From Sacculina carcini (taxonomy: Eukaryota > Arthropoda > Thecostraca > Sacculinidae), in the NCBI GenBank assembly GCA_916048095.2, contig OU696591.1:5043499-5107498 (forward strand): a DNA stretch of 64,000 nucleotides, written 5' to 3'. The position numbers were made by a program, and so were the translations under genes. This document shows, piece after piece, positions 1,586 through 47,800 of the stretch (position 1 is the first letter of the stretch; the number at the start of each line of letters is the position of its first letter). The notes under the pieces were generated by a model. The model was not told the DNA's origin, made no database searches, and worked only from the letters and a program-made list of their open reading frames with translations.

Positions 1586-2350
1586 TCACACTCTCGCACT
1601 CATTAGACCCCCGCGTTGCGCCTCCACTGTACAGAGGGGGGAGCTTTTTGGCGCTGAAGCTCCCCCTGCATCGTTTCCCTTTGCGCACTTTGCTGCATCA
1701 TGTCCTGTCTGACCGCAATTGAAGCACCGTCCGTCGACGTTCCGACGACGTTCGACTGAACGTCGAATGGCAGCTGCTCCAGCGACGGTGTCATCAGCTG
1801 AATCATCACCAGCCGCTACACATGCCGACATGGTTCCAGAACTAGCTGAAGCATCTGCCCGTGTCAATATACGAGCCCTCGAGATCAGACGACTCATAGT
1901 TACTGTCTGCATATCGTCTTCCTGTAGTCCTGCCGAAACTCGGTCCGGAAACCCACTAATGAACGCGAACTTCACCGAGAGCTCCAATCCCTGACTGGCA
2001 AAACCGCACAAATCAGCGAGTCGTCTAAGCGCATTTGCGTACACATCCACTTGCTCACCTTGCCACTTCTTCTTCGTCAGCATGGCAAATGATTCAACTG
2101 GATTGGGGGAAAATGCTTCTCGCAGTTTGGCTTTGATCAAATCGTACCTTGACTGCGCCTCTTCATTGAGCTCGAGGTAGAGTGACAAGGCTCCTCCTTC
2201 CAGAAATAGTGGCACAAACGCATGCAGCTCAGTCACTCCCGTCAGCTTGGCCACAAGTTCTGCCTTCTTCAACCATGCGACTACGTCGCCAGTACCGTCA
2301 AAATGTTTAATCATTGTTGCAGCCGAAATAGCTAGTGGTTTGAGGTCCAT
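1586..2350 (-). pseudogene. Element A gag with one CCHC zinc knuckle
   Basis: An open frame of 254 codons. The N-terminal part holds the lineage signature FDGTGDVVAWL followed by VPLFLEGGALSLY, which is also found in the Gag of elements B, C and D ([20 protein letters not shown] and similar). Near the C terminus a CX2CX4HX4C nucleic-acid-binding knuckle is visible (CFNCGQTGHDAAKC). The product would be the capsid and nucleocapsid precursor. Its first codons overlap the conserved 12-nt primer-site motif at 2322-2333. It is labelled pseudogene because the pol part of the same element is frame-broken. Confidence 0.75.
2322..2333 (-). promoter_or_regulatory. Primer-binding-site candidate of element A
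   Basis: Plus strand gccgaaatagct, which in the sense of the element reads AGCTATTTCGGC. It is identical to the sites of B, C and D. Here two bases (sense CT) separate it from a plausible LTR end in CA. It is the exact complement of nucleotides 1-12 of animal tRNA-Phe. Confidence 0.6.
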
Positions 2351-3000
2351 GTTTACACCACGAAAACAAAACTACCTTGTAAAATGATGAACTCTATTGA
2401 TGACGACAACAAATATGATTGAACAACAATAAGATGAAAACTCGCACGTACACAGTAGAGCAATAAATTCTCTCTAGGCTGTCAAAAATTAGATCCACAC
2501 AAACAACACGCAGAAGACTACACCGACCAATCCACACATAACAACACACCGGACGAAGAACACTACAACACCACTGCCGTCATTCCATACCAGCCGCTAA
2601 CACCAGTACACGTGCATACAAACATACAAACACGAAGTAGAATGACACGCATGAATACAGTGACGCACATACACACACAAGTACACACATAAGTCTACGC
2701 TAACAAGCGCACACGCTCTCCTACACTCTCGCTCAACTCAGCAAACGCATTCACACCTCCATTCATTCCCTCGCACAGCGTTCAATTTCTGACCAACAAT
2801 ACCACAATAACTCACCTAGCTGGTTCAATCACTCACATACATGTCTCCCATACACAAAATCCTTGCTCCACACACTCGCACACACCTAAGCAATCTAAGC
2901 ACACACACACGCATACATACATATCCACCTAGTCAACGTACACATGACCTTCGCAACGCGTGAATGCGCTGTGTGCGTGTGGGCGTACACATCATGTTCG

Positions 3001-44800: not shown

Positions 44801-47800
44801 CATGTCTGACTCAACGCCCGCCAGTCTTGCCAGTCTTCTGAGGTCCGTCATGAAGACGTTGACTGGCTCGTCCTTCCAAATACGCCTGGAAAACTCTTCA
44901 TAGGCTGAAAAGGCGTTGGTGGCAAAAGCTGCCAGAAGTGTGTCTTCAATTTTGTTCGCGTCATCTTTGTCGCGTGCGTCCATTTCAGCATACACTGCGA
45001 AAGCCGCGCCCTCCAGAAACAAAGGAATTACTTTACTCACCTCATAGATGTCATTGAGCTCTGCGACCAATTTCACCTTCGCCAGCCATTGTGCGACGTC
45101 GCCTGAACCATCGAAGCTCCTGATCATGTCACGAATTTTCACACTGTTCGACATGATTTCAAGTTATCCAGAATCTGCGCCGAAATAGCTTGTAAGAAGA
45201 ATCGACTCGTCACTGCACTACAAATGTATTAGCACTCCGTACGAATCTCTCGATGTTACCAAATCGCCCAGCGCACAATATCATCGCCCGGACTCTCGCA
45301 ATCGACTGCCCAAAAGCCGCGAACACACATGCCCATTCAACGTTAGCATACCGGATTAGCATATCGTGCAAGGTTGCAACACTGCACTACGCAATGTAGC
45401 GCTGCAATAGATGATCACGCACACACCCGTGCACACACACATACACACACTCACGAGCACATAATCGAGTCGGTCAACGATACACCAGTGAATAATACTG
45501 TCAGCATACACATGATTGCAAAATACAGATAAATCATACACATCAGAATATATGAACACAGTAAACACTAATTGTGGGTCACCGCCATATTGGTGACAAA
45601 ATAGCAGGGCAGAATTTATGCGTATCGGCCGCCATTGTGGATTTGTGGTTGGGGCTCTTCGTTGGGTTGAGCTTTTGGATCTGATGGTGGATGCGACGGA
45701 TTGATATATTTTGGTACGATTGGTGAATTTGTAAATATTCTGGGATAGTGAAAGTGACAATTGGACTTTCTCGCTCGTCGGCGACAAGATGTGAGCAATT
45801 GTAGAAGGGTTTTCACTTCCTTTCTCCCGTGCTGCTTGTCCTCCACCATTCTCATATCGCAATTACAAACAGTTTGATCCTGCTAAATTTACTTCACTTT
45901 TATCTTCCTTACTTCCTCTCGACCGCTTCTACTGGCTCCCTCTCCGCGATATTTTTCCAGCCATTTCAGATGTTCTCTCAGGTATAAATGATTTTATGTT
46001 TCCTTTGGTCACTCGGTCTAAACCTCTCACTTCTTCTCCCCCTTGGTTCTCCTCTCATCTTCATTCTCTTAAACATACTCAGCGGCGTGCCGAAACTGTC
46101 TGGAGTAGAACTCCATCTTCACAGGATTGGGAACTACTTTGCTCTGCCCGGTCGTCGTATGTTTCTGCATTACATATTGCCAAACAAGATTTTTACAAAT
46201 CCAAACTTGCTTCCCTTTCCCGTTCTTCTAAATCTCTTTGGTCCTCTCTCAATTCTCTCTGCGGTCTTCGATCTCCTGTTGTTTATTGAATCATATTTAT
46301 TGGTGTTATTGTTTATTGAATCATATTTATTTGTGTTGTTGTTACTTATTGAATCATATTTATATTTATTGTTGGATGTTTCTTTTTTGAATCATATGTA
46401 TTGTTCTTGATTGTTATTTATTACGTATTTATTAATATTTATTCTTATTTATTGATGGCTGTTTTTTAATGAATCACATATTTATTGTTGATTGTTATTA
46501 TTTATTGAGGAACGTGGGCGGAGTGACATTATGGATTGTTATCGGATGATGGTTTATTATTTATTGTTATTTATTTATTATTTTCTTTCCAACTCTCTTT
46601 CTAGACTTATTTCTCTTCGAACTCTCTTTCTCTCTTAATCTTTTGGGCGCTTCCGGTACATGGGGCCACCTTAGGGTGGTAATAGTGCTTGCACTCTTCC
46701 CATGCTACTGGATTTGCCTGTAATTAATAATAATAATAATAATAATACCTCGTGTGATCTTACAGCCTCTCAGTTTGCGTCTTTTTTCTCTGCGAAAATT
46801 GATTCTGTTCTAAACAATATCCCTCCTTTCCGATCCTCCCTCTGTCATACTCACACTTCCGAAAATTTTCCTTCATTTTCTTTTGTCTCTCTTCCTGTCA
46901 TTCTCCACCTTTTGTCTTCAATCAAGATGTCCCACTCTCCCTCGGACTCAATTAATTTTCGAGCTATTTCTGTGTCTCTTCCTTCTCTTGTGCCTTACCT
47001 TCTCCACCTTATCAACTCTTCTTTTCTGCATGGTGTTTTCTTGCCAGACAAACATGCTATTGTTCGACCCATTATAAAAAAACCTACTATTGATCCCGCT
47101 GCTCTCACCAATTACCGTCCTATATCTCTCCTCAGTCTTCCCTCCAAACTCCTTGAATCCGCTATTTCATTGCAACTCTCTCCTTACATCTCTAAATTCC
47201 TTGACCCGTGTCAATCTGGTTTCCGCTCTGCTCACTCTACTAAATCTGTACTTATTTCCTTGTGTAATGTTACCCTTTCACACTTCTCGTACCGTCAATC
47301 TATCCTCTTGGTATTACTTGATCTGTCCTCGGCTTTTGATCCGGTTAGTCACCCTATTATTATTCGTGATCTTTCCTGTTTGGGTCTATCTTCTTCCGCC
47401 CTTTCTCTTCTGAAATCTTACCTCACTGATTGTACGTACTCAGTTGACTTCAATTCCTCTACCTCTGCTCACTTCCCTCTTCGATATGGTGTTCCCCAAG
47501 GTTCCGTCCTTGGCCCACTATTATTTAATCTTTATATGTCTTCTCTTTGCCCTGTTCTTCGAAAACATTCCATTACTTTCAAAATCTATGCCGATGACAT
47601 CCAATTCCTCATTCCTGTCACTCCTGATACTCCCTCCTTTCTCTCTGATATACTTTCTGAAATTTCCTCATGGGCCGCTTCTCGGCAGCTGTACTTGAAT
47701 ACTTCTAAGTCTGAGTTCATCGTCCTCCATCCACCTCGTATTTCACCTCCTCTTCTCCCATTTCCTATCTCAACTGCTGTTCGCAATCTCGGCTCTATCT

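Follow-up and report, generated by a model that had tools for sequence, protein, structure and literature searches.

Organization of the locus

The 64-kb window analysed here, i.e. the whole stretch of 64,000 nucleotides from position 5,043,499 to 5,107,498 of Sacculina carcini contig OU696591.1, contains four long terminal repeat (LTR) retrotransposons, A to D, on the minus strand. Their sense order is 5′ LTR, the 12-nucleotide (nt) word AGCTATTTCGGC, gag, pol, a purine tract and 3′ LTR, and the sense edge reads LTR...ACA directly against AGCTATTTCGGC, with gag after it. On the plus strand the word is GCCGAAATAGCT. A preliminary description of this DNA had reported four exact copies, and all four were found, each on the plus strand, where 0.17 would be expected. 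No further copy was present in the window on either strand when one mismatch was allowed. The word had also been described as abutting the LTR (tgta...) in B, C and D. This is the case for B and D but not for C, in which the flank reads ggta because the last LTR base differs (ACC in the 5′ LTR vs ACA in the 3′ LTR). Beyond the 12 bases the flanks differ in all four window copies, as previously noted. The features of the four elements, with reverse transcriptase (RT) identities given relative to element D, are as follows.

45179..45190, minus strand: element D, candidate primer-site word (AGCTATTTCGGC in sense), adjoining the 5′ LTR without a gap
45191..45560, minus strand: element D 5′ LTR, 370 bp, TGTGTT...TTACA; TTTAC target duplication outside
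41191..41560, minus strand: element D 3′ LTR, 99.7% identical to the 5′ LTR; ends TTACA, then target duplication
44435..45163, minus strand: element D gag frame with a CCHC zinc knuckle; the word lies 24 nt before its first ATG
41580..44543, minus strand: element D pol frame with RT, DUF7047 and integrase core
26928..26939, minus strand: element C, candidate primer-site word; adjoining LTR edge ACC, vs ACA in its 3′ LTR
26940..27543, minus strand: element C 5′ LTR; AGAAT target duplication outside
about 22660-23263, minus strand: element C 3′ LTR
23259..26276, minus strand: element C pol frame with protease, RT, DUF7047, RNase H-like, integrase zinc-binding and core domains; some below the curated Pfam cut-off
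26171..27172, minus strand: element C gag frame, uninterrupted across the word (translated AISA), with its first ATG 1 nt beyond
13244..13255, minus strand: element B, candidate primer-site word
13256..14345, minus strand: element B 5′ LTR, expanded by a long GT-rich microsatellite; outer end approximate
9320..9801, minus strand: element B 3′ LTR; outer end approximate
12074..12706, minus strand: element B RT fragment, 43% to D
2322..2333, minus strand: element A, candidate primer-site word; LTR edge ACT
1586..2371, minus strand: element A gag frame, open through the word (MDLKPLAISA...)
380..1099, minus strand: element A RT frame, 44% to D

The LTR pair of element C has one mismatch in 603 aligned bases, plus the last base. 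Because their LTRs are near-identical and they are flanked by 5-bp target duplications, C and D integrated recently, and with this edge. A second LTR of element A was not found within the window. A tRNA-Val (CAC) gene or tRNA-like copy lies at 11134-11206, between the LTRs of element B.

Class of the carrier elements

The carriers are a group of Gypsy-order LTR retrotransposons, with protease, RT, RNase H and integrase encoded in this order between the LTRs. The pol protein of element C matched gag-asp_proteas (residues 42-128), RVT_1 (266-382), RVT_3 (529-591), H2C2 (666-714) and rve (735-820), the protease and RNase H matches being below the curated cut-offs. Across 13 pol proteins, Pfam matches were obtained for rve in 12, RVT_3 in 12, RVT_1 in 10 and DUF7047, which is located after RT, in 13. 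As integrase follows RT in C and D, the order is not that of Ty1/copia elements, in which integrase lies upstream of RT. Peptidase_A17 and DUF5641 are Pfam families specific to BEL/Pao elements, and neither was among the nine families matched by the 13 pol proteins. RT identity to D among carriers of the word is 38-49%, indicating deep divergence and agreeing with the description of these elements as divergent.

A protein search identified 766 relatives at E ≤ 0.001 among 7995 candidates scored. The 120 matches listed of these 766 include Argonauta, Aplysia, Oratosquilla and Petrolisthes entries, and an Octopus gag was also seen. No relative was confirmed in viral or prokaryote contigs (19 and 38 pattern matches, none encoding one), and none was encoded by the 33 IMG/VR stretches that have a 15-mer containing the word.

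The 12-nt word is a conserved, frame-independent feature of the LTR edge

The 264-Mb host assembly contains 2021 exact copies of GCCGAAATAGCT (1016 and 1005 by strand) vs 5 (3 and 2) of a reversed-word control. In element sense, the LTR-terminal CA directly precedes 1913 of the 2021 copies (~95%) and none of the controls, so that the word lies flush with the LTR end, i.e. at the primer-site position assigned to it from the window. The 14-mer of CA plus word occurs 2354 times when one mismatch is allowed vs 61 times in the control, and single-letter variants at the same place are a minority.

For a comparison of flanks we used 49 copies: 42 of the first 49 listed places on contig 1 (L007-L008, L011-L030 and L101-L120), the four window copies and three RT-anchored copies. 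As 46 of these had been picked by the word itself and three by RT, invariance of the word is expected for the 46. The 49 copies fell into 20 flank clusters. With one representative per cluster, columns 1-12 are invariant, columns -3 to -1 read ACA in 19, 20 and 18 of the 20 representatives, and columns 13-42 after the LTR edge reach at most 0.51 bit. The conservation around the LTR edge noticed in the window thus holds across genomic copies, in which only the 12 bases and the LTR end form a block and no other block lies within 30 nt on either side. CA directly precedes the word in 41 of the 42 sampled contig-1 copies; L011 has CT. The offsets of the first ATG after the word cover all three frames in the 20 clusters, and the peptide read from the word is AISA (in A, L014, L019 and L026), SYFG or LFR according to family. 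Because all three frames occur, a coding role of the word is rejected and the nucleic-acid role initially favoured is supported.

Among 14 elements, 11 have ACA at the end of both LTRs; in C and L011 the final base of the 5′ LTR deviates, and for L021 a 3′ end was not obtained. Target duplications of 5 bp were identified in 8 of 13 elements, or in 10 of 13 when the LTR start was set at TG in L011 and L027; therefore elements with this edge have integrated. The same edge is present in the short non-autonomous families L016, L027 and L029, which have internal parts of 0.66-0.69 kb.

Several further observations concern these edges and the opposite end of the internal region. CA is missing from the edge at 108 of the 2021 sites. 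The last LTR base at the site differs between the 5′ and 3′ LTRs of C (26940) and L011, the LTRs being otherwise almost identical. L010 has two exact sites, at positions 1116 and 1263, 147 bases apart and before one gag fragment. In C, D, L013, L014, L018, L030 and others, the purine tract upstream of the 3′ LTR is immediately preceded by a short hairpin. Its folding surpassed that of 95% of shuffles in 6 of 10 elements and was weak in the others; L013 and L018 are one family.

Most elements located by RT also carry the word

RT provided a route to these elements that did not depend on the word. We examined eight places among RT hits from the pol search (150 scored of 4128 candidates): five on contig 1, inside the listed word range, and three selected because their open frames are long, located on C3, C8 and C9, respectively. 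The exact site was present at five of the eight (two by coordinates, and L124-L126), about 1.2-1.4 kb upstream of the RT match, and L123 had the site with one mismatch. Within the window, all four RT fragments at 43-100% of D have the site; a distant RT fragment at 30287-30679 (29% to D) has no site 0.4-2.2 kb upstream.

The word matches the 5′ end of tRNA-Phe

Base for base, AGCTATTTCGGC is complementary to the first 12 nt of animal tRNA-Phe. This identity had been asserted beforehand, and it is confirmed by a Drosophila probe and a primer from a C9orf72 study, which give the animal tRNA-Phe 5′ end in the excerpts of PMC7038984 and PMC10505166. In 23 sequences tested, each of the 27 matches that begin at tRNA nt 1 extends to nt 12 and no further. 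In a comparison with tRNA-Phe alone, the site matched only nt 1-12 and not the anticodon region. Beyond nt 12 pairing is prevented by the LTR base opposite nt 13, which is A where G is needed, and on the other side nt 1 is where the tRNA itself ends. A block bounded on one side by the LTR and on the other by the natural 5′ end of an RNA is what a short 5′-terminal primer would leave. As a separate possibility, longer pairing with the body of tRNA-Phe was considered and rejected, because beyond L009 and L010 only two 11-nt matches were found, within the range of shuffled controls (0-9).

The site lacks an initial TGG, the complement of CCA, and hence does not belong to the class primed by the 3′ end of full-length tRNA. 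The window contains an ordinary example of that class in a terminal-repeat retrotransposon in miniature at 4557-5438 on the minus strand, in which the TGG site described earlier is indeed present (TGGTGCCCCGAG, one base from the LTR). By eye, TGGTGCCCCGAG fits the 3′ end plus CCA of the host elongator tRNA-Met, making this element an ordinary control from the same window.

Site-like peptides in gag relatives of other organisms

Some of the 123 gag relatives (P0125-P0247) start further upstream than usual, and the residues added in this way are a translation of the LTR edge. Eight contain a site-like peptide: P0167, P0200, P0236, P0205, P0129, P0132, P0139 and P0140. T-SYFG of P0167 fits the same 12-mer as the host word. 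SYLG (T-SYLG in P0200, R-SYLG in P0236) and KLSR (P0129, P0132, P0139 and P0140) represent two frames that both fit AGCTATCTCGGC, and T-SYPG of P0205 fits AGCTATCCCGGC. Being closely related (67-84% to P0140), the four KLSR proteins are counted as a single line. In P0236 an R precedes the site, and an LTR ending in CA would not give R in that frame. The implied variants alter only letters that face tRNA nt 5-6 and keep the tRNA-like TAGCT. These two nucleotides belong to the acceptor stem, in which compensatory changes of tRNA-Phe would be possible. Judged from these peptides, the site is probably present in other organisms.

A putative primer from the 5′ end of tRNA-Phe

We propose that AGCTATTTCGGC is the minus-strand primer-binding site and that the primer is nt 1-12 of mature tRNA-Phe, with its 3′-OH at U12 against the LTR edge. 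From the sequence evidence we put the probability of this reading at roughly two in three (0.68). First, unfolding or an earlier cut would free the 5′ strand of tRNA-Phe (its acceptor strand together with nt 8-12), which would anneal to the site. Cleavage of the RNA would follow behind nt 12, where the duplex ends. The simplest candidate for the enzyme is the RNase H of the element itself, by analogy with Tf1, which cuts its own mRNA 5′ end. Minus-strand DNA would begin at the last LTR base. Plus-strand strong-stop DNA would later copy the primer and halt at nt 1, and for this reason the block would be exactly 12 long.

Several results weigh against this proposal. The main gap is the host tRNA-Phe gene, which was not found in the assembly by pattern or similarity searches. 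GCCGAAATAGCTCAG has 0 copies in the host assembly. The 12-mer plus a tRNA-shaped continuation gave six hits, all LTR-edge-like (TTGT...); D-arm/anticodon patterns gave six tRNA-Tyr-like hits and no tRNA-Phe; a further D-arm/anticodon pattern gave 21 hits, four of them tRNA-Cys and none Phe, vs 15 in the control; and an acceptor/T-arm pattern gave one unrelated hit. Genes for tRNA-Tyr, tRNA-Cys and other tRNAs were found by the same searches, and tRNA genes as a class are thus present in numbers in the assembly. RF00005 scored 63 of 15013 candidates, too few to settle the absence of tRNA-Phe. At two of the eight RT-anchored places, L121 and L122, there was no site; as the stretch examined also had no gag match, their 5′ ends may be missing. 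For the foreign peptides the underlying nucleotides are deduced from protein, and serine has six codons. Besides the eight proteins with the peptide, about a dozen others among the 123 with longer N-termini have no such peptide, and their starts may lie downstream of the site. Finally, twelve pairs is short, and cleavage within the D stem is, to our knowledge, without precedent.

The similarity search for tRNA-Phe gave only two 3′-half pieces: nt 38-67, exact, in L010 (1501-1530) and nt 38-72, imperfect, in L009 (1501-1535). They suggest that host tRNA-Phe has the ordinary animal sequence at least over this part. Both pieces start at nt 38, and the L010 piece lies at the junction of a rearranged pol fragment of the same group. 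Both resemble captured copies of a tRNA 3′ half generated by anticodon-loop cleavage. Among known fragments, PMC12025293 lists a 34-nt piece from the 5′ end of tRNA-Phe.

Alternative explanations

The word could instead be the primer site for another RNA ending in GCCGAAAUAGCU, e.g. an unannotated small RNA, the match to tRNA-Phe being due to chance or indirect. As the host tRNA-Phe gene was not found in the assembly, the primer gene is not located, and this gives such a reading some room. We nevertheless regard it as unlikely, since by a simple estimate an exact 12-mer match to the start of one of some 45 tRNAs would occur a few times in a million, the block stops exactly where the tRNA stops, and the variants inferred for other organisms differ only where they face acceptor-stem nt 5-6, TAGCT being kept.

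The word might also be a conserved leader signal, for packaging, translation or as a nuclease tag, that pairs with tRNA-Phe or another factor while a different RNA primes. Pairing of a tRNA outside the main site is known from the bipartite primer sites of Ty1 and Ty3, according to the excerpt of PMC5371799. However, it is the 3′ end of the primer that sets the LTR end, and the word is flush with that end in about 95% of copies; moreover, no other conserved block lies within 30 nt on either side. These data make a leader signal improbable.

Self-priming, i.e. pairing of the site with part of the transcript of the element itself, has a model in Tf1 and Tj1, where a short mRNA 5′ end is the primer (PMC4600332, in part) and the geometry is similar, with a natural 5′ end and a cut at the site edge. 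One element, L025, has an 11-nt run that could pair with the site (p 0.01). In 14 of 15 elements, however, the 400 bases before the site, which leave parts of the longer B and C LTRs outside, contain no complement above shuffles, and the window has no other GCCGAAATAGCT on either strand, even with one mismatch. Self-priming is therefore disfavoured, and we consider it very improbable. The idea of a conserved gag peptide, or of recent shared ancestry of a single family, is refuted by the occurrence of the word in all three frames and by the deep RT divergence of its carriers, even though gag runs through the word in the AISA families.

Comparison with known priming systems

One of the closest known systems is the half-tRNA primer of copia, Ty5, fungal Copia/Helenus and some plant Ty1/copia elements. 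There, as proposed here, the inside of a tRNA is used, an internal cut must make the 3′-OH, and the site abuts or nearly abuts the LTR. Ty5 reportedly pairs with the anticodon region. Pairing with this region is also what the excerpts of PMC6317226 and PMC10886601 give for such primers, the latter for fungal elements with anticodon-loop sites, whereas the pairing proposed here involves nt 1-12, a cut in the D arm, and elements of Gypsy rather than copia order.

Tf1, Tj1 and sushi elements share the short RNA (about 11-12 nt), with a natural 5′ end as one border and a 3′ end cut at the site edge. Of the known systems, Tf1 comes closest to a working model for the present one. The Tf1 primer is 11 nt long. 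The RNase H of Tf1 cuts the element's own mRNA 5′ end out of the duplex (PMC4600332, as excerpted); here, by sequence, the 5′ end is that of tRNA-Phe, and 14 of 15 elements have no complement of their own. Mouse IAP and IAPE elements are alike in using the same tRNA species, tRNA-Phe. Their site is the complement of the tRNA-Phe 3′ end. It is also longer, at 18 nt in the part of PMC7472051 available.

Marine-invertebrate Gypsy elements, i.e. the Mag A/B/C clades (names from an excerpt of PMC8220671), CsRn1 and GyRex2, resemble the present group in pol order, in marine hosts (cephalopod, gastropod, crustacean) and in 5-bp duplications. GyRex2 differs in having a tRNA-Trp site that begins with TGG, and the same source (PMC3587641, in part) describes crustacean elements with TGG sites.

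Among the matches listed from the open-access literature, which excludes Repbase and subscription papers, no report of the word as a primer site was found; judging from their titles, the papers in which GCCGAAATAGCT or its complement occurs deal with RNA or tRNA. A 2019 survey of plant elements lists three primer types, namely whole mature tRNA, anticodon-cut half-tRNA and self-primer, and a 5′-terminal tRNA fragment falls outside all three as they appear in its excerpt (PMC6317226). The excerpts of PMC10886601 and PMC3587641 likewise mention no site for a tRNA 5′ end.

Implications

The site is real and widespread, and it most likely reflects a new variant of tRNA priming. Tentatively, and with somewhat less than even odds, it may represent a fourth priming class of LTR retroelements, used by a whole metazoan Gypsy-order lineage. 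In this class the RNase H of the element would cut the tRNA-Phe 5′ end behind U12, within the D stem, in a trans counterpart of Tf1 self-priming, and the site would track changes in the acceptor stem of host tRNA-Phe. If the site does track host tRNA-Phe, the predicted tRNA 5′ end is GCCGAGATAGCT in the carriers of KLSR and SYLG and GCCGGGATAGCT in the carrier of SYPG. Detection of primer sites based on TGG would miss a lineage with about 2000 exact sites in one genome. If true, the proposed mechanism would link tRNA-fragment biology to retrotransposition, and RNase H may cut the tRNA-template duplex.

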